Source: a virus
IMG/VR virus record: IMGVR_UViG_3300009537_004351
Location: 1 to 41,630 of that record
Length of the DNA: 41,630 nt
Reading direction: 5' to 3' (one strand)
Part shown: positions 2,921-24,943 of the stretch, piece by piece
Layout of the letters: each line of letters begins with the position of its first letter
Numbering within the stretch: the first letter of the stretch is position 1
The notes under the pieces: generated by a model
Seen by the model: the letters and a program-made list of their open reading frames with translations, nothing else
What the model was told of the DNA's origin: nothing
The model's database searches: none
Position numbers and translations under genes: made by a program

Positions 2921-4345
2921 ATGGACCAAATTGAAGTAAGTAATGATTATAGCTATTTAGTAACCAATAATTCAGAACTTAAAGAAAAACTCTGGAAATT
3001 ACTAAGGTTTAGGAACCGAAATTATTATCACACAAGGCTTTATAAACAGGGAATTTGGGATGGTTACACCAATTTCTTTGACAAAAAAACAGGGAAGTTT
3101 CTGAGTGGTTTGTTGCCAGAAATTGAATTTATTTTAAAGCACTTTAAAGTAGATTATACATTAAAAGACGGCAGACCTAACATCAGTTTATTATATAAAA
3201 ATATTGACAATCAATTTCTTAATAAGTGGCTTCCAAAGGGAGAAAAGCCAATAACCTTAACAGACTATCAAGTAGATTTCATAAATCAAGCAATAAAATA
3301 TAAACGTGGAATTATTAAAGCTCCCACATCAGCAGGTAAAACTTATGTTCTTTTAGGTATCATGAAAGCATTGCCAAAGATGCCAATATTATTTCTTGGC
3401 AATCGGTTGGCAATTACGGGTCAAAACTACGATGAAATGCAAAAATGGGGATTGGAAGACGTAGGCAGGCTTGACAGTAGAAAAAAAGAACCTAATTTGA
3501 TTACTTGTGCTACAGTCCAATCTTTACATTATATTGAAAAACTTCTACCTAAATTTCAAGCTCTTCTAGTGGATGAAGTTCATATGATGATGAGTCCCAG
3601 TTGTATTAGAGCTTACAAAAAACTCAAAGGATGTTCAGTTAGAATTGGATTAAGTGCTACACCATTTAAGTTCGGTGAGAAAGATAAGGTTCAGAAATAT
3701 AGCACCAAGGGATTCTTTGGTGGCGTCTTCATGACAAAGGCGAGTGATTCTGGTGCATTGACAACCGAGTTGTTACAGAGAAGAGGTCGAATATCGAACT
3801 CAAGATGTGTCTTCTACTATATTGACGAACCACAAATTCAATATGATTTATATATGGATGCGGTAACGAATGGCATAGCTCAGTCTTGGCATTTCCATCA
3901 GATCGTCAAAAGGCTTGCTGAATCATTAAAAGGAAGAATTTTGATTTTAGTAGAAAGACTTGCTCATGGAGATGTATTAAATAGCTTAATTCCAAACTCA
4001 CTTTGGGTTCAGGGTAAAGATGACGACGATACAAGAAAATATGTAATAAATGAATTAAAGAAATCAAAGGATAAGGTGGTTGCTATTGCGACTAGGCAGA
4101 TATTTGATACAGGAATTAATGTTTATTTACATTCATTAATTAATGCCGCAGGGGGAAGTGCCTCACATCAAACCGTTCAAATGTTAGGTAGAGGGTTAAG
4201 ATTAGCAGAAGATAAAAGTATATTACATTATTACGATTTTATTTTCAGAATTAATCAATATTTAGAAAGACATTCTTATGAAAGAATTAAGACATTAAAA
4301 GAAGAAAGACACAATGTTATAATTAAGAACGAAATAGATTTTTGA
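2921..4345 (+). CDS. uvsW: UvsW-type SF2 DNA helicase
   Basis: 474 residues. An N-terminal region (1-110) with RNYYHTRLYKQGIWDG and FLSGLLPEIEF matches the accessory domain of T4 UvsW. The helicase core follows: Q-like segment LTDYQVDFINQA, Walker A APTSAGKT from residue 134, DEVH box at 218-221, motif III GLSATPF, and motif VI QMLGRGLR. In T4, UvsW drives branch migration, reverses stalled forks and ends origin-dependent initiation. Its partners UvsX, UvsY and gp32-like proteins occur at 24.9-33.1 kb. Convergent with the SET gene (23-base overlap). Confidence 0.92.
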   Translation: MDQIEVSNDYSYLVTNNSELKEKLWKLLRFRNRNYYHTRLYKQGIWDGYTNFFDKKTGKFLSGLLPEIEFILKHFKVDYTLKDGRPNISLLYKNIDNQFLNKWLPKGEKPITLTDYQVDFINQAIKYKRGIIKAPTSAGKTYVLLGIMKALPKMPILFLGNRLAITGQNYDEMQKWGLEDVGRLDSRKKEPNLITCATVQSLHYIEKLLPKFQALLVDEVHMMMSPSCIRAYKKLKGCSVRIGLSATPFKFGEKDKVQKYSTKGFFGGVFMTKASDSGALTTELLQRRGRISNSRCVFYYIDEPQIQYDLYMDAVTNGIAQSWHFHQIVKRLAESLKGRILILVERLAHGDVLNSLIPNSLWVQGKDDDDTRKYVINELKKSKDKVVAIATRQIFDTGINVYLHSLINAAGGSASHQTVQMLGRGLRLAEDKSILHYYDFIFRINQYLERHSYERIKTLKEERHNVIIKNEIDF

Positions 4346-4832
4346 GATTATACAAATCATAATTTAAAAACCTATCCCATTCGGATAGGCTTTCATTCAA
4401 AAAGTTTAAATTTTCAGAGAACTTTTTGATTTCCTTGCCTATGCTTGGTCCATAATTGCCAACAAGCTCTTCATCTGGATGAATGTCTCTTAGAAACCTG
4501 TAAATAACCTGCCCTGCGTGTTGACTTCTTTTTGGTCCAGGGGCATACTCAATACAGCAGTTTACCAACTTTTGGTCATCACTATGGTTCACCATACCAC
4601 CAAAACCCATAGGTAAAATCTTGGCATTGAACTTTGGTGAGCCAGCAAATTTGTATCTTTTTCCATAGTGAGTACATTGGTCTGTCAAGCTGTCATTTTT
4701 AACGTAGACTCCGATTACCTCTAACCAATCATCTTTCTTCAAGAATTCTTTAGCAAAGCAGCCATAACCAGCATTTGGAAGTGTTGATTCTGCGAGGTAA
4801 TACCTAAGATCGGTCTCATCTACAAACATCAT
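4323..4832 (-). CDS. SET-domain protein
   Basis: 169 residues comprising little more than one SET domain. It has the opening AGYGCFAKEFLKKDDWLEVIG pattern in part (GYGCFA at 22-27), the pseudoknot motif GGMVNHSDD at 78-86 with Asn-Cys-Cys following, and EELVGNYG at 121-128 carrying the Tyr that in family members lines the active site. SET proteins are usually protein lysine methyltransferases using S-adenosylmethionine; no pre- or post-SET cysteine cluster is present. The target is unknown; phage or host proteins are both possible. Last of three minus-strand genes whose stops and starts overlap (4829-4832 and 5086-5088). Confidence 0.85.
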   Translation of the reverse strand: MMFVDETDLRYYLAESTLPNAGYGCFAKEFLKKDDWLEVIGVYVKNDSLTDQCTHYGKRYKFAGSPKFNAKILPMGFGGMVNHSDDQKLVNCCIEYAPGPKRSQHAGQVIYRFLRDIHPDEELVGNYGPSIGKEIKKFSENLNFLNESLSEWDRFLNYDLYNLKNLFRS

Positions 4833-5086
4833 ACTTCAATAAATCCTTTCTCTATAGCATCATTTATTTCTTTTAAGGTGACTTGCTTACCCAAAAACTC
4901 AGACATAGATTTAATAAAGTGTTTTTGAATGTCGCCTACATAATTTTCTTTCATTTCAGGGTCATTCTTGATTACAAATTGGGCTTTTTTGTATTGTTCT
5001 TCGTTTAATCCCCAATCAAAAGCCTCATTATCAACAGCAAGAATTCTCATACCTTGGTGTTCATGAATGGCAATCTTTTTCCGCAT
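4829..5086 (-). CDS. Hypothetical protein between C39-like peptidase and SET gene
   Basis: 85 residues, acidic, predicted mostly helical with no Cys cluster or membrane segment. Its ATG shares a base with the stop of the C39-like gene and its stop overlaps the SET start by four bases, so it is translated from a compact three-gene transcript. Not recognised. The internal stretch DPEMKENYVGDIQKHFIKSM could be an interaction helix. Confidence 0.7.
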   Translation of the reverse strand: MRKKIAIHEHQGMRILAVDNEAFDWGLNEEQYKKAQFVIKNDPEMKENYVGDIQKHFIKSMSEFLGKQVTLKEINDAIEKGFIEV

Positions 5087-5679
5087 TAACTTATTTTAGT
5101 AGCTTTTTTTAACTTTATACCTGACTTTTTGTATCTATTTTTCCAGACTGCGATACCTAAATGATAATAATGTTTGCCATCAGCTTCTATATCATGCCAT
5201 CTTTCATTAAACTCTTTTGTAGTTAGATATCCTCGTTGCCCCAAGTCAATGGATGGGTCTTCGAAATAGAAATGATTTTTATCATAACCTATTGCAACTA
5301 CGTAATGACCACATTTAGCTTTAGGATAAGTACTTTCTCTGCCCCAAGCCTGCATGGAACATATTACAGGCATCCTTTTGTCAAGATGTATTTTTAATCT
5401 CTTTAGAGACATATTGCTTCTGAGAATTGCTTTAAGCCCTAAAGTCTTAGCTCCTTCCACAATATTTTTAGGACAAGTTCCAAGTTTATAAGTAGTATTC
5501 AACAGTTTTCTATAATCCTCTTCCTTTCTATATCCTACTTTAAAATATTTGCAAATAACATGTAATGCTGAAGCACCACAAGAATAACATTTTTGTTGTC
5601 TGATTTGTGGTAATGCTATCTTAATAGCATTTTTTGGAATTTGCTTGTTGTTTTCAAGGCAAGTTCTTGAGCACTGCAT
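5086..5679 (-). CDS. C39-like papain-fold cysteine peptidase
   Basis: 197 residues. The catalytic triad of the C39 / papain-like fold is visible: Cys34 in QQKCYSCGASALH (with an upstream Gln for the oxyanion hole), His125 in KCGHYVVAIGYD, and Asp141 in YFEDPS. The pattern of a C-G-(A/P)-A-S/A-x-x following the Cys is typical of C39-like domains. No transporter is attached and there is no signal peptide, so it is a soluble peptidase, possibly for processing a phage or host protein. First gene of a run with a small unknown and the SET protein. The start has no ribosome site; a TATATA box lies five bases upstream. Confidence 0.85.
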   Translation of the reverse strand: MQCSRTCLENNKQIPKNAIKIALPQIRQQKCYSCGASALHVICKYFKVGYRKEEDYRKLLNTTYKLGTCPKNIVEGAKTLGLKAILRSNMSLKRLKIHLDKRMPVICSMQAWGRESTYPKAKCGHYVVAIGYDKNHFYFEDPSIDLGQRGYLTTKEFNERWHDIEADGKHYYHLGIAVWKNRYKKSGIKLKKATKIS

Positions 5680-5684
5680 ACAAA

Positions 5685-5690
5685 TATATA
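5685..5690 (-). promoter_or_regulatory. TATATA box 5 nt before a minus-strand start
   Basis: On the minus strand GCGTATATATTTGT precedes the ATG of the C39-like gene directly. No Shine-Dalgarno site is seen in the 25 bases before the start. Consistent with a leaderless transcript, as for neighbouring genes. Confidence 0.45.
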
Positions 5691-5757
5691 CGCAAAAAAA
5701 ACCAGATAGAGGCTATTTTTCTACCAATTTACATTAATAGATAATATAAAAAATAGC

Positions 5758-5763
5758 TAAATA
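5758..5763 (+). promoter_or_regulatory. TAAATA box 4 nt before a plus-strand start
   Basis: The sequence AGCTAAATAAAAC leads directly into the ATG at 5768. It resembles the TATAAATA late-promoter element of T4-like phages, and a near-identical arrangement (AGATAAATAAAATAT) precedes the repeat protein at 40527. A further TATAAA lies at 5745-5750. No Shine-Dalgarno site. Confidence 0.4.
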
Positions 5764-5767
5764 AAAC

Positions 5768-6271
5768 ATGCAATTTAAACAATGGCTAGAGCAACAGTCG
5801 CCACAAGTTAGTCCCAAAGAAGGTGGAATTGGATACGGAATATACGAAGAAGAAGCATTTAAAGACTTAAGCACTCTGAAAGCCATTCAACCTTTCGTCC
5901 AAGAAATAGGTAGTAAAGTAGAACGAAATCCCCAAGCTACAGGAGAAAAAGATGATCCTAAATTTTGGAATATAAAATACATACAATTCAATCCTGCTGA
6001 TATAGATCAATTAGAAAAAATTATAAAAGCCGGAATGTGGCATGGTTGGTATTCGTTACTCTGGACACCCAAAGAAATACGGGTTATTTTTAATACGGAT
6101 ACACATAGAATACAAAACACGTCTAAACAAGCAATTCCCACTTTTGATCCCAAACATCTAGCAAACATTGAAGGTTTAGCCAAACAACATGGTCTTGATG
6201 TAGGTTATATGCAAAAGTATTTGGGAAAAGGAATAAGTGATTTTTCTAAAGCCTACAAGGTAGTTAAGTAA
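5768..6271 (+). CDS. Hypothetical protein with M-x-F-x-x-W leader
   Basis: 167 residues, soluble, no known motif. The N-terminus MQFKQWLEQQ is an amphipathic leader shared in style with proteins at 6274, 6700 and 1811; in T4 the internal head proteins carry a comparable MKTYQEF-type capsid-targeting leader. The middle contains a Trp-rich strand pair (MWHGWYSLLWTPKEIRVIF). It converges with the minus-strand gene ending at 6274 with two bases between. A virion location is only inferred from the leader. Confidence 0.75.
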   Translation: MQFKQWLEQQSPQVSPKEGGIGYGIYEEEAFKDLSTLKAIQPFVQEIGSKVERNPQATGEKDDPKFWNIKYIQFNPADIDQLEKIIKAGMWHGWYSLLWTPKEIRVIFNTDTHRIQNTSKQAIPTFDPKHLANIEGLAKQHGLDVGYMQKYLGKGISDFSKAYKVVK

Positions 6272-11903: not shown

Positions 11904-12597
11904 ACTCATGTGGAAATTCTTCTCTGAAATAATCTTGTACTTCTTGGTTTATTGAAGATTCAAATAATGATAAGTCAGTTTTTATTTTACAATATTTTTT
12001 AATCCAAGGCGACATAAGAGCATAGAAAGGAGAAACTTTACCTAAAGCAATCCATCTTTCCATATCAGTTGCTAACATTATCATTTCCTTCTCTGTTGGA
12101 TAAGAGCTAAACTTTATAGAAAGAAATTCCTTAGTATTTTTTAATTCTTTTTTAATCTTATCAATTGGAACCTTATCGAGATCAACATCTTCTAAAGTTT
12201 GCCTTTTTTGCATTGCATCATACTTTTTCTTCCATATCTTCCATCGAATCCAAGCTTTATCACCTACTAAAATTCCAGGTTCAATCAATGGATGAGTATT
12301 ACCTAACTGGATATGTTTCAGAATTTGAAGTTGAGCTTTAATATAAAGTGAATAATCTGAGAATTTAAGTATACCTTTAGTTTCTCTAGCAAGTTTATAA
12401 CAATACTTAAAAAGTGAAGTTTTTCTTGGGTCAGCTTTTTTTGGAAATTTTGATGTGTGTTTGTAATCAGGAAAATATTTGCGTGACAACTCAAGCCATA
12501 ACAGACCTATTTTATAGGCTGTGGCTTCTAATTCATTCATTTTATATTCAAATATTGGGTCAAAATTATAGTTGGTCATAAAAAGCTGCATTAACAT
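11896..12597 (-). CDS. Hypothetical phage protein, helical
   Basis: 233 residues, rich in aromatic and basic residues, predicted mostly alpha-helical (for example AYKIGLLWLELSRKYFP and DKAWIRWKIWKKKYDAMQ). No motif recognised. The start is uncertain: ATGs at 12597, 12591 and 12579 all lie within the last codons of the upstream methyltransferase gene, and none has a clear ribosome site; 12579 gives the least overlap. Probably co-transcribed with the methyltransferase. Confidence 0.7.
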   Translation of the reverse strand: MLMQLFMTNYNFDPIFEYKMNELEATAYKIGLLWLELSRKYFPDYKHTSKFPKKADPRKTSLFKYCYKLARETKGILKFSDYSLYIKAQLQILKHIQLGNTHPLIEPGILVGDKAWIRWKIWKKKYDAMQKRQTLEDVDLDKVPIDKIKKELKNTKEFLSIKFSSYPTEKEMIMLATDMERWIALGKVSPFYALMSPWIKKYCKIKTDLSLFESSINQEVQDYFREEFPHEFT

Positions 12598-13471
12598 CTG
12601 GATTCACTTCTTTTAATCTTTCATAGGCCTTCTGACAATATTTAATATTTAAATCAATAGAGACTGAATTTCTTCCGGCTAACATTGCAGCAATTGATGA
12701 ACTACCAATTCCACCAAATGGGTCAATAATCCAATCATCTATAAAGGAATACAATTTAATTACTCTCATAGCTAACTCGATTGGAAAAGGACATGGATGT
12801 AACAAATTATTTTTCCGTTTTGCAAATATTTTTTTAACAGGTCTAATTTTCCACACTCCCAATACACTTTCTATAAATTCTTCTTTAGTAATATTATCTT
12901 CTCTTTTATCGTGTTCTCCAGGTTTCTGGAAAACAAAAACATATTCGAATAGGTCAATGATTGAAGGATTTGTAGATTTCAACCAAGAGCCCCACGCAGT
13001 AGAACTTTCTTCCCTACCTTTATACCAGATGTGAAGCCCTCTATATTTATAATTTAATTCCAGACACGCTTTCGAATAAAGTGGCACAATTATAGGCAAG
13101 CGAGAACCCTTATCAATTGAAACATCCCTTATATTGATTACCAATCTGCCACCTGGGATTAATACTTTATCAGCTTTTTCTATAAACTTTCTTAAGAATT
13201 CTATGTATTCACCAATTGGCTTCTTATCGTTATAATCATTTCCGTAATCATGCCCAGCATTATAAGGGGGTGAAGTGAGTATTAAAGATGGTAAAATATT
13301 ATTTTTTATAAGAAAGTCATCAACTCGACTTGAAAAATAATCAGAAAATAGTATACAATGTTGTCCACTAGAAATAGGATTATCTATATTTTTAAATAAT
13401 TCACTAAATTCTCTAATTTGATTATTAAGGTCATTTTCTATTTCTGTTTCTCTTTTTATGATAGAGGTCAT
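12566..13471 (-). CDS. Site-specific DNA methyltransferase (N4/N6 class)
   Basis: 301 residues from the ATG at 13471, preferred over 13528 because an AGGA site precedes it and the longer form would overlap the divergent gene. Motif IV is TSPPYNAG at 66-73 and motif I DPFGGIGSS begins near residue 250, so the order is IV before I (beta-like). The S-P-P-Y form is commonest in N4-cytosine enzymes, with N6-adenine also possible. It would modify phage DNA against host restriction, or act with a partner nuclease; a candidate partner is divergent at 13473. Confidence 0.9.
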   Translation of the reverse strand: MTSIIKRETEIENDLNNQIREFSELFKNIDNPISSGQHCILFSDYFSSRVDDFLIKNNILPSLILTSPPYNAGHDYGNDYNDKKPIGEYIEFLRKFIEKADKVLIPGGRLVINIRDVSIDKGSRLPIIVPLYSKACLELNYKYRGLHIWYKGREESSTAWGSWLKSTNPSIIDLFEYVFVFQKPGEHDKREDNITKEEFIESVLGVWKIRPVKKIFAKRKNNLLHPCPFPIELAMRVIKLYSFIDDWIIDPFGGIGSSSIAAMLAGRNSVSIDLNIKYCQKAYERLKEVNPDVNAAFYDQL

Positions 13472-13472
13472 T

Positions 13473-14090
13473 ATGATTATTCCTATAGTTTCAAACCTAT
13501 TAACTTCTTTAGAACAGTGGTCATACAATGGTAAATTTTTTAGGATTGCTAGAGATAAGTTTAGAGTTCAACCAGCCATAATCCCAGTGATATATAACCA
13601 AATTTACGAGAAGAAGACAATACCAGAAGTTGCAGAGTTGCTAGAATTAAGAGACTGGAAAACCAACTACGGAACTGATATTAACGAACTTGTAAGTATA
13701 ACAAAAGATGATAGTTTAAAGATGGCTGTACGTTCTAAATTATATCAAACCAGAGTTGGCGTTTTAAGAGAGTTACACATAGCTAACAATCTCGCCCTTA
13801 ATGGAATTGAAGTCCATAAAAACGTGGAATTTGACATAGATAAAAATGCAGATTTACTAACTCCCAAATTTAAAACTTATGTACAAGTTGGGCATGATGG
13901 CGAAGGGTCCTGGTTTCATCAACCCAAAAAAGACAAAAAAACTCTAGAATTAACGGAATCATTAGAACCAGGATGGAGAGTAATATCATTTAGAGATGAT
14001 TTTAGATTTCACGAAATAGATTTAACATCCGTTTGTCGATTAACACCATATTTTGGGATAGAAATCAAAGAAATGATATTACCACAATAA
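13473..14090 (+). CDS. Hypothetical protein, possible PD-(D/E)xK-like nuclease
   Basis: 205 residues from the ATG at 13473, which has GAGG five bases upstream; an in-frame ATG at 13458 is less likely. The region GVLRELHIANNLALNGIEV, then NADLLTPKFKTYVQVG, has the helix-strand layout of a PD-(D/E)xK nuclease core (Glu on the first helix, Asp in ADLL, then a Q-x-G where E-x-K is expected). The last catalytic residue is therefore atypical and the call is weak. Divergent, one base apart, from the methyltransferase start: a restriction-modification-like pair is possible but unproven. Confidence 0.6.
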   Translation: MIIPIVSNLLTSLEQWSYNGKFFRIARDKFRVQPAIIPVIYNQIYEKKTIPEVAELLELRDWKTNYGTDINELVSITKDDSLKMAVRSKLYQTRVGVLRELHIANNLALNGIEVHKNVEFDIDKNADLLTPKFKTYVQVGHDGEGSWFHQPKKDKKTLELTESLEPGWRVISFRDDFRFHEIDLTSVCRLTPYFGIEIKEMILPQ

Positions 14091-16138: not shown

Positions 16139-16696
16139 ATGAATAGTATTTCGAATGGTTTTCCGATTACGGATAAGGAATATGAATGTTTAGAAAGGGA
16201 ATTTGGTCAACTTGCTAAATATGCCGCATGGCAATTGTTGAGAAAGAACAGTAATAACAATCACACGGATGAATTTGAAGATGTTAATCAAGAATTAATT
16301 ATGTCGCTTATAAGAGCAGGGTCTTACTATAAAAGGCAAATCTATATTGAAGAGTGTCTTAGTATTGCGAAGCAATATGCTAAAGATGGGTTTGTCAGTT
16401 TCATATTGAGTGAATTAGAGAATTTATGGCATAATAGAACAAGACACGGGGCTAACAGGCAAAAGTTTGGTATGTATCAAGAACAGCTTCTTACACATAT
16501 TATAAAACGGGTTGTACCTAGAAATGAACGGCCTAACAAAAAGAAGCCTTTAAAAATTGATTCTAAATTTGCTACGTATTGCAAGGCAATTGCTTGGAAT
16601 GCTCAGAAAAGTATGGGTAGAAAAATTACTAAAGAGAAAACGATTCGGAGTGGTATCACTAGTCTTTCTGAATTTGATTATCTTGCGGAGGTTTAA
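16139..16696 (+). CDS. Conserved-looking phage protein, possibly sigma-like
   Basis: 185 residues with a GTGAGG ribosome site. A helix-rich segment DEFEDVNQELIMSLIRAGSYY (in part; residues 43-63) resembles region 2 of sigma factors, where an acidic D-x-x-Q-E-x-x-x-x-L-x-x-A pattern is usual, and SKFATYCKAIAWNAQ follows later. If this holds, it could be a gp55-like late sigma factor serving the TATATA-type starts of the left arm. The similarity is weak, and a purely replication-associated protein is equally possible. It sits between polymerase and NUDIX genes on the same transcript. Confidence 0.55.
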   Translation: MNSISNGFPITDKEYECLEREFGQLAKYAAWQLLRKNSNNNHTDEFEDVNQELIMSLIRAGSYYKRQIYIEECLSIAKQYAKDGFVSFILSELENLWHNRTRHGANRQKFGMYQEQLLTHIIKRVVPRNERPNKKKPLKIDSKFATYCKAIAWNAQKSMGRKITKEKTIRSGITSLSEFDYLAEV

Positions 16697-17254
16697 GTGA
16701 TTAATTACGTGGTTAGTTATGCATTTACTGTTGACACTCCTCTTGATAGAAAGCTTGTTCCTTTGATTTTAAAGAAACAACCAGAACATTTAAAGGGAAT
16801 GCTTAATCTCCCTGGTGGCAAGCTTATGGATGATGAAAGTCCCATAGATGGTGCTATTAGAGAGTTAAAGGAGGAAACGGGACTTGATGAGGTGCAGGAA
16901 GTTGATCCAATGGTCTACTATCCTGCTGAATACATGGGGGTAATTCATGGTTCTACTTGTAATATTCATTGTGTAAAAGTTCCTGTGTGTTCTGGCAAAT
17001 TAAATCCAGGTCCAAATGAAATGGAGACTGTAGACTGGTATGAACTTCCACAACTTTATAGTTTGCCAAATTTAATGCCTAATCTTAGAATTGTTATTCC
17101 TTTAATGGAGATTGGTATAAAGGACTGGACTGTTGTAGATACAGGTGGAGATTGGCGACATTCAGACAAACATACGGTTGGATTAACTTTTAAAGGATTG
17201 AAAGAGTGGAATCCACTAGCAGTTACAGTAAGAAGTGTGTTGTATTATGAATAA
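16697..17254 (+). CDS. NUDIX hydrolase
   Basis: 185 residues with a GTG start directly after the stop of the previous gene and a GCGGAGG ribosome site (16686-16692). The full NUDIX box is present: a G-x5-E-x7-R-E-L-x-E-E-x-G-L pattern at about 42-64 (GGKLMDDESP, then AIRELKEETGL). These enzymes cleave nucleoside diphosphates linked to another moiety, for instance oxidised nucleotides, NAD-like cofactors or RNA caps. The C-terminal extension of about 60 residues is unassigned. Its last codons overlap the start of the MoxR gene by eight bases, so it is translated with that cassette. Confidence 0.93.
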   Translation: MINYVVSYAFTVDTPLDRKLVPLILKKQPEHLKGMLNLPGGKLMDDESPIDGAIRELKEETGLDEVQEVDPMVYYPAEYMGVIHGSTCNIHCVKVPVCSGKLNPGPNEMETVDWYELPQLYSLPNLMPNLRIVIPLMEIGIKDWTVVDTGGDWRHSDKHTVGLTFKGLKEWNPLAVTVRSVLYYE

Positions 17255-18326
17255 ATTTCAAGAACTGATTGATAAAAGGGTCTTACCTTTACAAGAGGCG
17301 TTGGAAAAAGTAATCGTTGGCCAACGCCAAGTTATTAGGCGTGTTGTAATGGCATTGTTTGCAGTGGGGCAAAGGGACTTTTTTACAAAAGATGGTAGTC
17401 GTTTTCTCGGCACAGGTCATGTTTTATGTGAGGGTAGTGTGGGTACTGGTAAGACAGTGCTTTGTAAAACGTTGTCTCGTTTACTGGCGGGTAACAACAA
17501 GCGTGTGAGTGGTTTACCGGATGCTTTGGCATCCGATATTACAGGATGTGAGATAATTCTGCTTGACGGTAGTGTTAAGACCGTTCAAGGCCCTTTGTTT
17601 TGTAATATCATGCTTGCGGATGAAATAAATCGTTTTCCTCCGAAGGCACAAAATGCTTTTATTGAGGCACTTGCCGAAGGCTGTGTAACAATTGGCAATG
17701 AGACATTTCGTTTGCAACAGCCATTTTTTTGTTTGGCTACTCAAAATCCAACCGAACAAAAGGGTACGAGTCGTATGCAGGAAGCACTTTCTGATAGATT
17801 TATGTTTAAAGTTATAATGAAAGAAACTACTGAAGAAGAAAAATGTCGCATAGCAGAGGTAACACATCATTTTGATTTGACGAACATTCAGCAGATCATA
17901 ACTACGGATGAGGTTTATGAAGCCAGAGAGCACTTCTTTGATAATACATTTGTTAGCGAGCCTATTCGTCATTATTGTGCAAGGTTGATATATTCTTTGA
18001 ATCATCCTAGAGAATTTGATTTGTTTAATGAAGAATTTGAGGTGCTGGGCGATGACCCTGTTTTTAAACAGAAGCCAGCTTTGAATGATAGGGCAATGTT
18101 GCATTTGGAAGGTGCAGCAATGATGGAGGCTGTAATGAATCGCAGGGATTATGTGTTACCTAGTGATGTTAAGGCGGTTGCAAAAGACGTTTTTCGATGT
18201 AGGTTGATGGTTCTGGAATCAAGTTTACATTTGCTTCTTGATTCCTATCCAAAGAAATATTCATCAGAAACTGAGCTTGTTGATAGTTTAATCGGGGATG
18301 CTTTGAGTGAGGTTGCTATAGTTTGA
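17247..18326 (+). CDS. MoxR-family AAA+ ATPase
   Basis: 359 residues from the ATG at 17247 (a GTG at 17235 is in frame but less likely). Walker A GSVGTGKT at 63-70 in HVLCEGSVGTGKTVLCK, Walker B IMLADEINRFPPKAQNAFIEAL, and the MoxR sensor stretch ATQNPTEQKGTSRMQEALSDRF are unmistakable. MoxR proteins are chaperone-like ATPases that remodel or activate partner proteins, usually VWA-domain proteins encoded next door. First gene of a six-gene Bat-like cassette; its stop overlaps the TTG start of the DUF58 gene (TTGA at 18323-18326). Confidence 0.95.
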   Translation: MNKFQELIDKRVLPLQEALEKVIVGQRQVIRRVVMALFAVGQRDFFTKDGSRFLGTGHVLCEGSVGTGKTVLCKTLSRLLAGNNKRVSGLPDALASDITGCEIILLDGSVKTVQGPLFCNIMLADEINRFPPKAQNAFIEALAEGCVTIGNETFRLQQPFFCLATQNPTEQKGTSRMQEALSDRFMFKVIMKETTEEEKCRIAEVTHHFDLTNIQQIITTDEVYEAREHFFDNTFVSEPIRHYCARLIYSLNHPREFDLFNEEFEVLGDDPVFKQKPALNDRAMLHLEGAAMMEAVMNRRDYVLPSDVKAVAKDVFRCRLMVLESSLHLLLDSYPKKYSSETELVDSLIGDALSEVAIV

Positions 18327-19165
18327 AAAGAAGACGTTTTCGCAATTTAGAATTACTGGCAAAATATCACATCGACACTTTTTCTACTGGCAGTCATCTA
18401 AGCTTACTTAAAGACAAACTTATGGACATAGATACTGTTCGTGAGTACCAGCCAGGCGACAAGAAGCTCGATAGTAAATCTAGTATAAAAACTGGCAAAA
18501 TCATGTCTAGGGTTTTCAATCCAGAAAAATCTATGAATGTTTTTATATTACTGGATTACAGTTCTTCTCAGATGACCAAACATGATGCACCTTTAGTTTC
18601 TTCACTTTATATCGCATATCTTGCTGATATTTTATATGACAAGGTTGGAATTCTGATTTTCGATGATGAAGTGATATCTTTTTCGGAACCTACTGATGAT
18701 CAAACTATCGTTGTTGATTTATTGCGTGATATTTATGAAAAAGATGTTCTGTGTAAGGCGACAAACATAAATGTGGCATTGTCCAAAGTAAGAACTCTTG
18801 AATTAACTAACACTTTATTTGTTTTAATATCAGATTTTTGTTACGATATATCTGATAAAGATTTGAGAATATTGAAACAGATTTCAATGGGTAAAAATAA
18901 CTTCTCAATTTCTTTGGTTTTGTTTAATGAGTTTGAATGGATTTTTAAAGACTGCGGTTTCGATTTTGATTTTTGTGATTTAGAAACCGATACTCATTTA
19001 GAATGGAGTTCTGAAAAAAATGAGGATCACAAAGTTACTTTTAATAACTGGCAAAGGGATTTAAAATCTAAGTTGAGGAAAGTAAGAGTTGAGCCTATTT
19101 TTTTGGAGGTCAATAATGAACGTTTTCTGATGCCATTCATCAGATATATTTCCAGGGGCCAGTGA
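18323..19165 (+). CDS. DUF58 protein with VWA-like MIDAS motif
   Basis: 280 residues, TTG start overlapping the MoxR stop. VREYQPGDKKLDSKSS at 39-54 is the DUF58 hallmark (V-R-x-Y-x-x-G-D), followed by LLDYSSSQM where Asp78, Ser80 and Ser82 form a D-x-S-x-S metal site, and a later LISDFCYD. The whole remainder is VWA-like. DUF58 proteins are the regular partner of MoxR in envelope-related operons of bacteria. No membrane segment. Stop overlaps the next start at 19162-19165. Confidence 0.93.
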   Translation: MKRRRFRNLELLAKYHIDTFSTGSHLSLLKDKLMDIDTVREYQPGDKKLDSKSSIKTGKIMSRVFNPEKSMNVFILLDYSSSQMTKHDAPLVSSLYIAYLADILYDKVGILIFDDEVISFSEPTDDQTIVVDLLRDIYEKDVLCKATNINVALSKVRTLELTNTLFVLISDFCYDISDKDLRILKQISMGKNNFSISLVLFNEFEWIFKDCGFDFDFCDLETDTHLEWSSEKNEDHKVTFNNWQRDLKSKLRKVRVEPIFLEVNNERFLMPFIRYISRGQ

Positions 19166-20547
19166 TGATTGAACTAATTTCTTTTCTAGCAATATTTTTT
19201 GCTGTAGAACGAATCAACGAGATGCCTGTTTATAAACAACAGGATTTTCATTATTTTAATGAAAATGGTAAAGCCCATGCACTACCAGTTCTTCCTAAAA
19301 TCTTCGTAGTATTTGAGGATAGAAATAAATTTTTGAAATTCACCGAAAAGATTTTTGAAATAAAAATGATCGAACCTTATGAAGAAGGTGCGGTCATAAT
19401 ACATTGCAGGAAGCAAAAACACATTTTAGGTCTTTTAAATAAAATATCTCTTGCGGGCTTTAGGTGTGCTCCAATCGTTATATTTGATAATATTGAGTCA
19501 ATTCCTGGTAATACTATTATTCTTGAGCCAAAATCTTCGGTTACTGACTTTCTGATAGTAGATCGAGTTTCTAGAAATATTAAAGCTAATTCAATCCATT
19601 TAAGGAGGTTTGACAAAAGAATTTGTTATTTAGATTTTGAAGGGATTAAATTACCTAAGAATATTTTAGCGGTTGCTAATCTTATCTCGAATGATGATTT
19701 TTGGTTTAAGTGGGCTACACCTGTTTTCCAACCTTTATATGAACCTATTATTGCAACTGCGGAGGTAGAAACCCGTGCAATTACTCACCTGGGTGAACTT
19801 AGAAAGCTAAAAATTAAAGTGGATATTTATGACAATGATATAAAGTTAAGAAAAGACCTCCTCCCAGTTATTGGTCAAGCTAATTTTTTCCCCTCCCCTT
19901 TGTTTGATAATCTTTGGTTAGATACGGAGAATGTTGAAATTGAGGAGTTTGTAAGTCCGTACAAAAAGAGTTATTTAATTTCATATCCTTTTAAGGTTTT
20001 GAATTTTGGTGCTTTTGTTTTTCAAAGATTTAATCTTTTTTATGAGGTTGAAGGTGAAGTCAAACCTCTTGAGATTGATGGCATTTCGTTCTTCATTAAT
20101 AGTATAACAAGGAATAGTGGAATTGATGACATACAACCTATTAGAGACGATTTATCTCTTGTTTCGTATACTGTAACAAGGCCTGATGCTACTAATTTCA
20201 ATTGGTACAAATATCTTTCATTTGGTTCTTTGTTACTAAGTATTCTTGGGGTGGGTTTATTGGGTTGGCTGTTCACTTCACAGATTTATTTCGCTGTTGT
20301 TGCGTTTATATGTAATGTTCATGCAGTACTTGCTGCCAAAGGTGCTTTTCGTTACTTCAGGAATAAAGTTTATCAAGTAAGTCGTAATAAACCAGAAAAC
20401 TGGAGGGAGGCTTATCAAGATATTCTTCGTGATTCTAATCTGTATGAACATCATCATTTGTTTAAAGATGAATTTAAGTCAGAATTAAACAAAATTTATA
20501 TCAAGGATGCTAAGCCAGATTTTGACAAATTACGTAAGTTAATTTGA
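19162..20547 (+). CDS. BatD-like membrane protein
   Basis: 461 residues from GTG 19162 or ATG 19165. The N-terminus is hydrophobic (IELISFLAIFFAV). The segment 208-300 is a beta-rich domain with VGD/VIGQANFFPSPLFDNLW and FEVEGEV-like strands, resembling the beta-sandwich of BatD/MxaA-type proteins. Two membrane helices lie near 356-400 (LSFGSLLLSILGVGLLGWLF and IYFAVVAFICNVHAVLAA), followed by a cytoplasmic tail of about 60 residues. In Bat operons this position is held by BatD. Assignment rests on position, topology and the beta-domain pattern, so the name is tentative. Confidence 0.68.
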   Translation: MMIELISFLAIFFAVERINEMPVYKQQDFHYFNENGKAHALPVLPKIFVVFEDRNKFLKFTEKIFEIKMIEPYEEGAVIIHCRKQKHILGLLNKISLAGFRCAPIVIFDNIESIPGNTIILEPKSSVTDFLIVDRVSRNIKANSIHLRRFDKRICYLDFEGIKLPKNILAVANLISNDDFWFKWATPVFQPLYEPIIATAEVETRAITHLGELRKLKIKVDIYDNDIKLRKDLLPVIGQANFFPSPLFDNLWLDTENVEIEEFVSPYKKSYLISYPFKVLNFGAFVFQRFNLFYEVEGEVKPLEIDGISFFINSITRNSGIDDIQPIRDDLSLVSYTVTRPDATNFNWYKYLSFGSLLLSILGVGLLGWLFTSQIYFAVVAFICNVHAVLAAKGAFRYFRNKVYQVSRNKPENWREAYQDILRDSNLYEHHHLFKDEFKSELNKIYIKDAKPDFDKLRKLI

Positions 20548-21584
20548 TGAATTATCCCTTTTTTTTATTACTTCTGCTTCTGCCCCTTTTATTTTTTGTG
20601 TATAAAGGCAGGAAATTCTTTCTTACTCATGCTTATGTTAGTGCCTTAAGTTTGACTGGGGGAAAAAGTAAATTTAGGCTGAACTATAAATTTTTAAATT
20701 GGTTAGCATTTTTTTTTCTAATCTTAGCAGCTAGTGATATATCTTGGTCTATTACTGAAGTTGTAGAAACACATTTGGTTCATAAGTATATTTTAATTAA
20801 TGATGCATCTGGTTCGATGGTAGATTTTATGCAAAAAAATGGCATAGGTCGAGAGATGCAAGCATTGTTAGATGGAAATAAAAAATTTTTACTTGGATTA
20901 AAAGATGGTAAGCGGAAAGATTATGTTGGTGCTATTGTTTTTTCAAGTAATGCTTTTGTAGTTTCTGATTTAGTTGATGATCCTGAGTTTGTCTTGAAAA
21001 AAATTCTAAGGATAGATTATTCAATCAATCCGTTAGCTGGAGGAACTAATATTAAGAGTGCTATTTGGACTGGCATTTTAATGGCACTAGGAGAGAAAAA
21101 AAATGACAAATTAGAAGTTCGTATGTACGGTGATGAAAACAGATTAATAGAGGACGATTACTTGAAAGGACTCGCATCCAGCAAGCAAAAAGAAGTACAA
21201 GGGACTTCTTTGATAGTTTTTACAGATGGTTTTTTACCTAATCCTGCCGGTAGTAATTTTGATATGTCAATGTTTAAGCTTATGAACTTCTGCGAGATGA
21301 TTGGGATTAGGATATTTTTAATTTCTGTTTCAACTATGGAAATAAATATCGCTTCGTCTATTAAGAAAACTGGTGGGTCTATTATAGTAACTAATGATAT
21401 CAACAGTTCAAAGTTGACAAAGGTATATAAGGATATATTAGACAGTCAAGCTAATGAAATGATAGAAGTTGAACAAGAATCTGATAAATCTTTATCCCAG
21501 TTGTTAGCATTTGTTGCTTTGATATTTTTGTTTTTGGGGATTGTTTTGCAAAATACTTTTAATAGGAATTTTACAGAGGTTTAA
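20544..21584 (+). CDS. BatA-like VWA membrane protein
   Basis: 346 residues, start TTG 20544 or ATG 20547 overlapping the previous stop. Topology: membrane helix at about 4-20, second at 50-66, VWA domain from about 80 to 300, and a C-terminal helix (LLAFVALIFLFLGIVL). The MIDAS is complete: INDASGSM (Asp87, Ser89, Ser91), a Thr in AGGTNI, and an Asp in VFTDG. This is the architecture of BatA/BatB proteins. The domain probably binds metal-dependent partners outside or at the membrane, and its assembly would depend on the MoxR ATPase. Confidence 0.92.
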   Translation: MMNYPFFLLLLLLPLLFFVYKGRKFFLTHAYVSALSLTGGKSKFRLNYKFLNWLAFFFLILAASDISWSITEVVETHLVHKYILINDASGSMVDFMQKNGIGREMQALLDGNKKFLLGLKDGKRKDYVGAIVFSSNAFVVSDLVDDPEFVLKKILRIDYSINPLAGGTNIKSAIWTGILMALGEKKNDKLEVRMYGDENRLIEDDYLKGLASSKQKEVQGTSLIVFTDGFLPNPAGSNFDMSMFKLMNFCEMIGIRIFLISVSTMEINIASSIKKTGGSIIVTNDINSSKLTKVYKDILDSQANEMIEVEQESDKSLSQLLAFVALIFLFLGIVLQNTFNRNFTEV

Positions 21585-21586
21585 GT

Positions 21587-22372
21587 ATGAAAAGGCTTAT
21601 TTTTGGTTCTATGCTTTGTTTTATAGGGACTTATTTATTTATATCTTTTTCATCTAATGCAGATGAGCTTGAAATTGAATATAAAAAACAAAAGGCTATT
21701 TCTAGCGAGCAGACTGCTTATAGCAATATTGCTACTCTTTTGGATTCTGCTGATGATTTACATGATCTTTTGGAGCCACAACGTATTTTGTTACTTGATA
21801 TCCCTAAGGACAAACGAGAAGATATTCAGAGGGTTATTGATCTTAAATACATAATATTTAGTTTTCAAAAAGCTGAAAGAATGCTTGTTAGGGCAAGGAA
21901 GTTGCAAGAAACAATCGATCCGATTAAACCACCTCCACCTCCACCCGAACCTACATGGGAGAATCCTAATCCACCTCCACCGCCACCTGTAAAGTTACAT
22001 CCATTGGTTGAGAGTATGGTCGAGGAGATTATAGCTCTTTATAAAGAGTGTAAGGAAAAGGCGGATCACCTTGTAGAGAAGAAAGACAATCCTAGCTTTA
22101 ATTTCTTACTTAATTATACTAAAGGGGAAATTTATTATAGGCATACGCAACTTTTATCCACTTCCGACAATGTATCAGATTTATTTAATCAAACTGTTAC
22201 CTTTTATAAGATGGCATTGAGAAATAAGCTACGGGACACTGACACTGTAATAAATATTGAGATTCTTATACGCAACAAGGATAGGCTGTTAGCGAATGGA
22301 AGACAGCCATTGGGTCAGCGTAGACGATTGCTAAAACCAAGTGTTGGTATAGGAAGTTCTACAGGGATATAA
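21587..22372 (+). CDS. BatC-like secreted protein with Pro-rich linker
   Basis: 261 residues. Residues 1-26 (MKRLIFGSMLCFIGTYLFISFSSNADE in part) form a signal peptide or membrane anchor. A charged helical region is followed by two proline runs near 115-135, then a helix-rich C-terminal half containing a TPR-like unit (QTVTFYKMALRNKLRDTDTV), as in BatC. The tail GQRRRLLKPSVGIGSSTG is basic and flexible. It sits between two VWA genes, as BatC does in bacterial operons. Two bases separate it from the previous stop. Likely exported; the TPR call is weak. Confidence 0.7.
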   Translation: MKRLIFGSMLCFIGTYLFISFSSNADELEIEYKKQKAISSEQTAYSNIATLLDSADDLHDLLEPQRILLLDIPKDKREDIQRVIDLKYIIFSFQKAERMLVRARKLQETIDPIKPPPPPPEPTWENPNPPPPPPVKLHPLVESMVEEIIALYKECKEKADHLVEKKDNPSFNFLLNYTKGEIYYRHTQLLSTSDNVSDLFNQTVTFYKMALRNKLRDTDTVINIEILIRNKDRLLANGRQPLGQRRRLLKPSVGIGSSTGI

Positions 22373-22373
22373 A

Positions 22374-23405
22374 ATGGGGTTTGATAGAGTCTGGATTTTG
22401 CTGTTTTTAACAGTTGTGCCCGTATTGTTTTTCTTTTTTATGAAAAGTTGGAAATTATTTTCCAAATTTCCTAATCTTTCCACTTTTTTGCACGGAAGTG
22501 TATGTCCATATAAAGGTGAGAGATTGGCTATAGCTATTGTAAGGTTACTAGCATTAACATTTGTGATAATTGGTTTATCTAATCCTTTTTTATATGTAGC
22601 TTCAAAAGAGGATGTATATCACGATGTTAGATTAATTTTTTTAATAGACGTATCTAGATCGATGGCGTATGGTGAAGATATAACTCCTAGTAGATTAAAA
22701 GCTGCTAAAAGGGAAATACGTGAAGTGTATGACTCATTGGATGGAAATTATGAGGCTGCTATTATTCCTTTTGCTGGTGAACCTAACATTTTTTATTGCC
22801 CATTGACTTTTAGTAAAAGTACTTTTTTTGAGATGCTTAAAGAATTGGATGAAACTTATGCTCCAACATTAGGCACCGATTTAATTAGAGTTTTTGATTC
22901 TTTCAAGAGTCATTTTGTCAAAAACGAACGTATTGATAAATCAGGTTTGAATTTAATAATCCTATTGTCAGATGGTGGTAAATCTGACAATGTGGCTCTT
23001 GATAGAAGTAAATTATTGAGTATAGTTAAAGAATTATCTCAAAAGAATTTTAAAGTTTATGCTGTTGGAATCGGTAGTAATGAACCAGTTTCTTTGATTT
23101 TAAGAGATAAAAATGGTGCTTTTATAGATTATCTGAGGGATGGTAATGGTACTCTTATTAAATCTGAATTGGATGAGGATATTTTGCAAAAAATAGCTGA
23201 GCATGGCAATGGTAAGTATGTTAACTTTAATGCTGATAGCAAACTATCCAACTTCATTAAAAATATAGTTTTGGAAAATAGAAAGTCTGCTGGCGAAGTT
23301 GTTGAATATGATAAGCTTTATGTTTATCCATTTTGCTATGCTTTGTCTGCTATTTTAATTTTCCTTGCAGCTTTATATAATAGGAGGTTGCTATGGAAAA
23401 CCTAA
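22374..23405 (+). CDS. BatB-like VWA membrane protein
   Basis: 343 residues, start one base after the previous stop. Membrane helices at about 5-22 and 51-68, VWA domain from about 84, C-terminal helix FCYALSAILIFLAAL. MIDAS residues Asp92, Ser94 and Ser96 in LIDVSRSM, Thr in LGTDL, Asp in LLSDGG are all present. It differs clearly from the 20544 VWA protein, so the two correspond to the BatA and BatB roles rather than a recent duplication. Last cassette gene; its end overlaps the DnaB-type helicase gene by 13 bases, tying the cassette to replication genes on one transcript. Confidence 0.92.
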   Translation: MGFDRVWILLFLTVVPVLFFFFMKSWKLFSKFPNLSTFLHGSVCPYKGERLAIAIVRLLALTFVIIGLSNPFLYVASKEDVYHDVRLIFLIDVSRSMAYGEDITPSRLKAAKREIREVYDSLDGNYEAAIIPFAGEPNIFYCPLTFSKSTFFEMLKELDETYAPTLGTDLIRVFDSFKSHFVKNERIDKSGLNLIILLSDGGKSDNVALDRSKLLSIVKELSQKNFKVYAVGIGSNEPVSLILRDKNGAFIDYLRDGNGTLIKSELDEDILQKIAEHGNGKYVNFNADSKLSNFIKNIVLENRKSAGEVVEYDKLYVYPFCYALSAILIFLAALYNRRLLWKT

Positions 23406-24943
23406 CAGAAAAAGATCAAGCTATTATTGCCCAACTGATTGACCCAGATGTTGAGGCTCAAGCCAAGTACCCTTATAGTTCAGAGTTTCAACAAGTATTG
23501 ATTGGGATGCTTCTTTGCGATAGGTTTTTCTTGTCGCAAAGTTTTGGTCTAATCAAACCACATTATTTTTCAAGCGAAGTGCATCAATTCATTTCTCGTT
23601 TTGTGTTTGACTTTTTTGAAAAATATAAAAATCTGCCAAGTAAGATTTTTGTTCGACAAGGTACTGAGGAGTTCTTGAAGAAAAAATATGCTAATCGAGT
23701 GGATGATTTTGGAGTATTTAGAACAATTTATCTTGGTGAGCTAAAAACGATCTACGATTATTATACCAAGGGTGGTGTTGGCAACTTGATGCCAGGTCTT
23801 GATCCAATTGAAGCTATTTTGGATAAGATTACTACTTTTGCCAAAACCCAAGCAATGAAGACTGCGTTTCATAGGTCCTTGGAGTTGATAAGGAGAAATC
23901 CAGAGGTTGATGAAACTTGGGATCAAGTTAATCAAATCATTAAAGAAGCACAATTGGTTAATCGCAACTTTGATTTTGGCTTGGATTATTTTCAAACTGT
24001 GGAAGAACGATATGAAAGGATGCGTGAGAATGAGCAGTTGACAGAAATTTTTTCTACTGGATTCGATAAGTTGGATAGTGGTTTAGCTGGTGGTGGAATG
24101 GTGCGTGGTGAAATTGGTGCTGTAATGGCACTTCCTGGTAGAGGCAAAAGTCTTAATTTAGTATTGGCAGCTGTTAAAAACATTGCTAGAGGTAAAAAAG
24201 TATTATATGTTACAACTGAGATGAGGCAGGATCGTGTTGCAGTAAGATTTGATGCAATGTTTAGCTTAATTGGTCAGCATAAACTTTTGCAAAATCAAGA
24301 AGAAGTAATGCGTGCTTTGAGAGGTATTATAGAAGAATTTGATGATAAACAAAGACTTGTTGTTAAACAATTCCCTAGTGGAACTGCGGATATAAGCACT
24401 GTTAAAGCTTATCATTCTCAATTGATTATGTTTGGATTTCGTCCCGATCTGGTTATTATTGATTATCCTGGAGATATGAAGGAATATCCAGGAATTAAAA
24501 CCTATGAATCTATGTTTAGATGGATTCGTGATTTGAAAGGCTTTGGTGCGGAAGAGGATCATTGTACCTTGATTGCCATACAGCCTAATAGGGATGCATC
24601 TGAATTGACTATTGATGATTTTATGGATGAAAGTAAACAAGGTGGTTCGTTCGATCAGAATAAGGTTTTTGATGTTTTTTGGACATTGAATCAGATAGCA
24701 GAAGAAAAGAAAGCAGGTATAGGTAGGTTATTTGTAGCAAAAGCTAGAAATGGTAAAGCAAATTATTCTTTTAAGATTTATTATGACTTTAGTAAACAAA
24801 CCTTGATGCTTAGTGAAATAAGTGAGGATAAGTATAAGCGTCTAAGAATTAGTAACCAGAATACAACCTCTGATGATACAGAAAGTATAGTTGATACGGT
24901 TGCTAAGTCTGTTTATGAACCGAGTGAAGGAGAATTAGTATAA
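23393..24943 (+). CDS. Replicative DNA helicase, DnaB/gp41 type
   Basis: 516 residues. An N-terminal helical domain (YPYSSEFQQVLIGMLLCDRF) precedes a RecA-fold motor domain starting near 215 with TGFDKLDSGLAGGGMVRGEIG, Walker A LPGRGKS near 247-253, a TTEMRQDRVAVRFDAM helicase segment and Walker B LVIIDYPGDM. It is the ring helicase that unwinds the phage fork, as T4 gp41. No separate primase is recognised in the window. An AGGAGG-type site lies before the ATG. Followed immediately (shared base at 24943) by the UvsY-like gene. Confidence 0.92.
   Translation: MENLTEKDQAIIAQLIDPDVEAQAKYPYSSEFQQVLIGMLLCDRFFLSQSFGLIKPHYFSSEVHQFISRFVFDFFEKYKNLPSKIFVRQGTEEFLKKKYANRVDDFGVFRTIYLGELKTIYDYYTKGGVGNLMPGLDPIEAILDKITTFAKTQAMKTAFHRSLELIRRNPEVDETWDQVNQIIKEAQLVNRNFDFGLDYFQTVEERYERMRENEQLTEIFSTGFDKLDSGLAGGGMVRGEIGAVMALPGRGKSLNLVLAAVKNIARGKKVLYVTTEMRQDRVAVRFDAMFSLIGQHKLLQNQEEVMRALRGIIEEFDDKQRLVVKQFPSGTADISTVKAYHSQLIMFGFRPDLVIIDYPGDMKEYPGIKTYESMFRWIRDLKGFGAEEDHCTLIAIQPNRDASELTIDDFMDESKQGGSFDQNKVFDVFWTLNQIAEEKKAGIGRLFVAKARNGKANYSFKIYYDFSKQTLMLSEISEDKYKRLRISNQNTTSDDTESIVDTVAKSVYEPSEGELV

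Follow-up and report, generated by a model that had tools for sequence, protein, structure and literature searches.

What would a bacteriophage do with the genes of a bacterial Bat operon? The question is raised by IMG/VR record IMGVR_UViG_3300009537_004351, a 41.6-kb fragment of an uncultivated virus that was analysed over its whole length of 41,630 nucleotides (hereafter the window), in which six consecutive open reading frames (ORFs) on the plus strand, at 17247-23405, are packed between a NUDIX gene and the gene of a DnaB-like helicase. Protein profile comparisons give strong overall support for homology of the six products, one by one, to proteins encoded side by side in the bacterial MoxR-DUF58-Bat operon, with a modest match for the third. 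On balance we somewhat favor the view that this phage-owned Bat-type operon specifies a single trans-envelope AAA+/VWA machine, which would work on the envelope of the infected cell in the manner of bacterial Bat. The cassette and its two neighbors are as follows.

16697..17254, plus strand: NUDIX hydrolase, left neighbor outside the cassette (Pfam NUDIX, 8.1e-13)
17247..18326, plus strand: MoxR-family AAA+ ATPase (gene 1), 359 aa; ATG at 17247, alternative GTG at 17235
18323..19165, plus strand: DUF58 protein (gene 2), 280 aa, TTG start (Pfam DUF58, 3.7e-18)
19165..20547, plus strand: gene 3, 460 aa (profile comparison, AlphaFold2 model)
20547..21584, plus strand: BatA-like VWA protein (gene 4, VWA1), 345 aa (VWA_2, HHalign)
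21587..22372, plus strand: BatC-like protein (gene 5), exported or membrane-anchored, helical, 261 aa (HHalign, AlphaFold2)
22374..23405, plus strand: BatB-like VWA protein (gene 6, VWA2), 343 aa (VWA_2, NCBIfam, HHalign)
23393..24943, plus strand: DnaB-like replicative helicase, right neighbor outside the cassette (PHROG 19, 4.3e-60)

Homology to the bacterial bat operon

The reference comprised approximately 23 Bacteroidota bat operons with the nearly uniform order MoxR-DUF58-gene 3-BatA-BatB-BatC-BatD-BatE, and each phage protein family was compared with all eight bacterial families by profile-profile alignment (HHalign). Each of the six phage proteins ranked its own counterpart first, and a smaller operon set gave the same ranking. 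The matches reached 100% for MoxR, 99.8% for DUF58, 99.1% for gene 4 with BatA (97.9% with BatB) and 100% for gene 6 with BatB (99.9% with BatA), and were weakest for gene 5 (91% with BatC, E 1e-6; runner-up BatE, 26%) and gene 3 (54%, E 1.3e-4). NCBIfam independently placed VWA_BatB_Lepto (Leptospira BatB, 1e-21) ahead of BatA (3.7e-10) for gene 6, which has an N-terminal double-transmembrane domain. This gene-by-gene ranking, together with the independent ranking of BatB before BatA for VWA2, suggests that homology extends to the operon as a unit, and it bears out the BatA-, BatC- and BatB-like labels given to genes 4, 5 and 6 in the initial annotation, which had been made from the sequence alone. 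The first four phage genes follow the bacterial order, and BatB and BatC are swapped relative to Bacteroidota.

Pfam matches to AAA_3, DUF58 and VWA_2 likewise agree with the MoxR, DUF58 and VWA identities proposed there, and every motif that it had pointed out was recovered and is conserved among phage homologues, namely the Walker motifs, the DUF58 signature VREYQPGD and the three DxSxS sites. Gene 1 matches AAA_3 (3.3e-38) plus AAA_lid_2, with intact Walker A (GSVGTGKT, ~17433-17456) and Walker B (LADEIN, ~17613-17630) motifs, while the DUF58 protein carries a DYSSS sequence (~18554-18568) resembling a metal ion-dependent adhesion site (MIDAS). Since no transmembrane (TM) helix was predicted in MoxR or the DUF58 protein, both are expected to be cytosolic. 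The MoxR genes of two phages are interrupted by in-frame inteins whose insertion point is the P-loop itself (GTGK/C...HN/T) and which contain Hint and LAGLIDADG domains; each gene forms one ORF of 691-702 aa with an intein of ~330 aa in Walker A (L004:8804-10876 and L005:8768-10876). Inteins typically occupy indispensable sites.

Both membrane VWA proteins retain a full MIDAS (DxSxS, T and D). The Pfam VWA_2 score of gene 4 (27.1 bits) is barely above the 27-bit cut-off, and VWA_2 was matched by all six gene 4 homologues; its MIDAS is DASGS (~20802-20816), the T and D sites are retained, and in the alignment columns the C-terminal TEV is invariant. For gene 6, the Pfam matches are VWA_2 (2.5e-11) and VWA (1.6e-10), and the MIDAS sequence DVSRS (~22647-22661) is invariant in homologues. 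No Pfam peptidase match was found in either protein. Each is predicted to have three TM helices near residues 1-25, 50-70 and 315-340, in agreement with the earlier description of membrane helices at both ends, and this layout is the same as that of bacterial BatA and BatB. The Borrelia VWA protein BB0173, which belongs to a bat-like cluster and has the same layout, carries its VWA domain on the periplasmic side (PMC5700661), and the phage VWA domains are predicted to face the periplasm as well.

Pfam recognised neither gene 3 nor gene 5, and when their models were compared with PDB structures by Foldseek, no hit fell below 0.001. The best profile match of gene 3 lies in its immunoglobulin-like (Ig-like) part and is to an unnamed bacterial gene located between duf58 and batA, suggesting, with modest homology, that gene 3 is the counterpart of that gene. 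The initial annotation had called it BatD-like, which could not be upheld: the BatD profile reached only 5% and the BatD family PF13584 was found in none of eight phage records, so that BatD was ruled out as an identity for this gene. Its AlphaFold2 model (pLDDT 73) contains, by our reading of strand and helix order, two ferredoxin-like folds and an Ig-like beta domain, after which come a long helix and a tail that is also helical. The protein begins with a hydrophobic segment and has a TM region between the Ig-like domain and the tail; a TM helix was predicted in seven of seven members, and the tail is predicted to be cytosolic. The model of gene 5 (pLDDT 79) is all-helical with a TPR-like second half, and its N-terminal hydrophobic segment is consistent with the exported protein proposed earlier. 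Because individual gene 5 members have no significant match to Pfam TPR families, gene 5 is best described as a diverged BatC.

The claim that the Bat cassette is complete did not stand, since BatD and BatE are missing from it. The C-terminal tails also differ, phage BatA ending in the invariant TEV and bacterial BatA mostly in RRLP-like sequences, whereas bacterial BatC ends in KDW, which is lacking in phage BatC. Two groups of candidate sequences were set aside: Arcicella MoxR genes (L015 and L016), which are not bat-operon genes, and two records of 5 kb labelled 'Bacteriophage sp.' (MT838533 and MT838234; 25-40% matches), which are possibly bacterial bat fragments and were not used.

Distribution, genomic context and selection

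Single-protein scans with VWA2 and DnaB gave nothing, and alignment-based searches were needed to find relatives. As the initial annotation would have predicted for an established gene set, the whole cassette was found in the same order in five further records of 341 kb (L002), 187 kb (L003), 39 kb (L004), 436 kb (L005) and 595 kb (L007, LR756511.1), and partial cassettes lie at contig ends (L009, L011/L012 and L122). In L011, five of the six genes were present with another gene upstream of DUF58, and MoxR was not seen. Insertions between cassette genes are tolerated, including a TnpB-like gene in L011 and small genes in L002 and L003. The L011 insertion (4068-5840) is a TnpB/Cas12f1-like gene (PF07282, 2.8e-11) between the BatA-like and BatC-like genes, and L003:11068-12347 comprises three extra small ORFs between MoxR and DUF58, one of them encoding 242 aa without a Pfam match. 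Terminase is present on two cassette-bearing records (L002 and L007).

In the window, the surrounding replication set is T4-like (a DnaB-like helicase, a family A polymerase, a UvsX-like recombinase, a single-strand binding protein and a UvsW-like helicase). The genes overlap at both cassette edges, as had been noted before (8 nt for NUDIX/MoxR and 13 nt for VWA2/DnaB); MoxR and DUF58 overlap by 4 nt and the remaining junctions are within 4 nt. Judging from this packing, the cassette may be read as one transcript; a promoter and terminator scan of the window gave no excess over shuffled sequences (43 promoter-like sites against a shuffle mean of 48.4). The 3' end of the cassette adjoins DnaB in all records that show this flank except the 436-kb phage, and in the records with this arrangement each visible left flank is NUDIX. 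In the replication module of the 436-kb phage, NUDIX adjoins DnaB, and ~145 kb of the same contig lie between this module and the cassette. Approximately 20 further loci share PolA, a 185-aa protein and DnaB with no cassette between them, and several cassette-less relatives have NUDIX next to DnaB. The placement in a replication module proposed earlier holds for the window, whereas the idea of an early, replication-linked function is weakened, as many relatives have the module without the cassette and one cassette is far from it. MoxR and VWA2 searches of whole cassette-less records (including those of 254, 343, 381 and 527 kb) gave no match; this absence is firm at the shared site and provisional genome-wide, because the records may be fragments.

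In the phylogeny, the phage cassettes group in a single clade, and the branch between this clade and the bacteria is ~2.3 substitutions per site long. MoxR is 70-74% identical to its phage homologues versus 35-40% to Bacteroidota MoxR. Between phages, MoxR identity is 70-74% where that of DnaB is 52-55%. For the 436-kb phage, the replication genes reject grouping with the other cassette phages (approximately unbiased (AU) test, 0.025), and a basal position of this phage in the cassette tree is not rejected (AU 0.13). Horizontal transfer and an ancient cassette, lost in some lineages and relocated once, are thus both possible histories. In both cases the six genes stayed together, even at the second site, and the idea that they travel as a unit was supported.

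The ratios of nonsynonymous to synonymous substitution rates (dN/dS) in close pairs were 0.06 for MoxR, 0.08 for DUF58, 0.04-0.06 for VWA1, 0.09-0.12 for gene 5 and 0.08-0.11 for VWA2. Several pairs, including those of gene 3, were saturated in dS and their values were not used. The cassette values of about 0.04-0.12 are near those of DnaB (0.03-0.06), and by this measure the cassette is under purifying selection. Considering that its genes are kept together under strong selection across distant phages, the machine that they encode is probably used by the phage during infection.

Several other genes were observed nearby. The 185-aa protein (window 16139-16696) has no Pfam match, is 67-72% identical among cassette phages and adjoins PolA in approximately 30 phage contigs, which makes its gene a good clade marker. 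On the minus strand of the window are genes for a Peptidase C39-like protein (5086-5679; 1.5e-11) with a weak PHROG match to endolysin, and for an N6_N4_Mtase family DNA methylase (12566-13528; 4.8e-34).

A possible trans-envelope machine and its use

How might such a set of proteins operate? In NorQ-NorD, a finger of the VWA protein enters the AAA+ pore and the NorD C-terminus contacts the ring (PMC13036017). By analogy, MoxR would form a cytosolic ATPase ring that engages the DUF58 protein as a soluble VWA-like adaptor, together with the tails that gene 3 and BatA would extend into the cytosol, and a pull or twist could then be passed through the membrane helices to the two periplasm-facing VWA domains. 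Gene 3, with its Ig-like domain, and the TPR-like BatC may serve as a periplasmic scaffold, and the VWA metal sites would hold or release putative client proteins of the host envelope. The most likely use would be to keep envelope proteins of the infected cell folded or assembled during the replication of a very large phage and the cell remodelling that it brings about. The homology is strong, the mechanism that we infer is likely, and the purpose, for which we favor maintenance or modification of the envelope to the benefit of the phage, is tentative. Loss of bat/moxR genes affects resistance to heat and oxidative stress in some bacteria (PMC11834572). Superinfection exclusion, envelope stress, membrane-associated replication and lysis control, as put forward in the initial annotation, would all be candidate uses.

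Several observations weigh against this reading. BatD (PF13584) gave no match at E 0.1 in the eight phage records, two of which carry terminase and all of which are possibly fragments, and BatE is absent from the cassette, to which the search was confined (the best BatE profile score being the 26% to gene 5). Sister phages of similar genome size without the cassette indicate that it is not generally needed by a large phage. In addition, a Leptospira bat mutant grows and looks like the wild type (PMC3557215), and it is not settled what Bat does in bacteria.

Among the alternatives, the main rival is superinfection exclusion or another form of inter-phage conflict, in which envelope proteins or receptors would be altered and competing phages kept out. 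The patchy spread of the cassette in the wider clade and its two genomic sites would fit an accessory conflict gene set, and every predicted action sits at the envelope. For huge phages, Al-Shayeb 2020 (PMC7162821) suggested that proteins located in the membrane may influence how susceptible the cell is to other phages. Nevertheless, we consider this unlikely: dN/dS of about 0.04-0.12 and MoxR identities of 70-74% are unlike those of fast-evolving conflict genes, six genes would be costly for simple exclusion, and no known defence family was matched beyond weak generic AAA hits. A search of PADLOC defence systems gave such hits for MoxR only (DolB, 4.6e-6) and none for the other five proteins, and the bpMoxR ternary system profile scored 14.6 bits against MoxR, under the 27-bit cut-off. 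It is improbable that the cassette is a virion assembly chaperone, helping membrane-linked head or tail assembly, for which jumbo-phage MoxR-vWA pairs (PMC7824862) and p618/p892 of Acidianus two-tailed virus (PMC4124505) would be precedents. Two cassette phages hold a separate MoxR-like AAA+ gene adjoining a DUF2201_N metallopeptidase gene, a type of pair proposed for virion assembly (PMC7824862), which makes that role less likely for the cassette; the peptidase gene also occurs in cassette-less relatives, most members have the cassette beside replication rather than structural genes, and the VWA domains are predicted to be periplasmic.

The clear homology to a host-type operon could also mean that phage subunits replace or poison those of host Bat, which we rate as quite improbable, given that one or two subunits would suffice for it and the phages keep the full six-gene set with intact ATPase and metal sites; the BatA and BatC tail ends, which differ from the bacterial ones, suggest a self-contained phage complex instead. 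Lower still in probability is a membrane platform anchoring the phage replisome or DNA. The position between NUDIX and DnaB, with the 13-nt DnaB overlap in the window and a placement shared by most members, would suit it, but PolA, NUDIX and DnaB are kept without the cassette in many relatives and one cassette is ~145 kb off. Finally, since homologous operons are common in bacteria, a bacterial passenger or an assembly chimera without phage function had to be considered. It is very hard to credit: identical junctions recur in independent assemblies from several metagenomes and LR756511.1, which excludes a chimera, and the single phage clade ~2.3 substitutions per site from bacteria, the low dN/dS and the terminase on two records speak against a passenger, a reading that the initial annotation had also turned down on the grounds of gene placement.

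Returning to the envelope machine, one may combine these points into a wider proposal, namely that huge phages own a self-contained trans-envelope AAA+ machine distinct from host Bat, that its six genes move between lineages as a unit, that it rebuilds or protects the periplasmic face of the cell and that it represents the first viral, reduced Bat complex. All parts together are possible at best, and we hold the combination to be rather doubtful. The role of Bat has been unclear since its discovery in Bacteroides fragilis, and the retention of six genes under purifying selection, with BatD and BatE lost, points to MoxR, DUF58, gene 3, BatA, BatB and BatC as a minimal core, which could be expressed and tested as one unit. 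If the proposal were true, a huge phage would operate an ATP-powered machine that spans the inner membrane of its host, a phage activity that we did not find in the literature searched.

Comparison with known systems

Searches of the main texts of open-licence papers turned up MoxR-vWA pairs in phages but no phage with a Bat-type operon; the main text of Al-Shayeb (PMC7162821) mentions neither MoxR nor VWA. The closest relative of the phage cassette is the bat operon of Bacteroidota, known from Bacteroides aerotolerance, which has six homologous proteins, the same VWA membrane layout and MIDAS motifs and the same MoxR-DUF58-gene 3-BatA order. In comparison with it, the cassette has BatC before BatB, lacks BatD and BatE, differs in its protein tails and is phage-borne; its MoxR is 35-40% identical to the Bacteroidota protein, and its gene 3 has two extra N-terminal alpha/beta domains. 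Bat clusters of spirochaetes (Leptospira, and Borrelia BB0170-BB0176) also contain MoxR, DUF58 and two membrane VWA proteins, and gene 6 has its top NCBIfam match in Leptospira BatB, but these clusters are cellular, keep BatD and have their TPR parts fused differently.

NorQ-NorD and RavA-ViaA share the combination of a MoxR AAA+ protein with a VWA partner and offer a model for force transfer, whereas they are soluble two-protein systems with known clients and without DUF58 or Bat proteins. Among viruses, p618/p892 of Acidianus two-tailed virus (PMC4124505) likewise pairs a MoxR ATPase with a VWA protein. Unlike the cassette, this RavA-like pair belongs to an archaeal virus, is a virion component in tail development and comes without the DUF58/Bat set. 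The MoxR-vWA(metallopeptidase) pair of group 2.2 jumbo phages (PMC7824862) is similar in joining a phage MoxR-type AAA+ protein to a VWA-type partner, but has two proteins, one fused to a peptidase, without DUF58 or membrane VWA proteins. A second MoxR-like AAA+ gene adjoining a DUF2201_N metallopeptidase gene, as in these jumbo phages, was observed at L143:4454-7212 and L144:4509-7498. MoxR-VWA pairs in phages are already known (PMC7824862), and what would be new about the present locus is the six-gene Bat-type operon.

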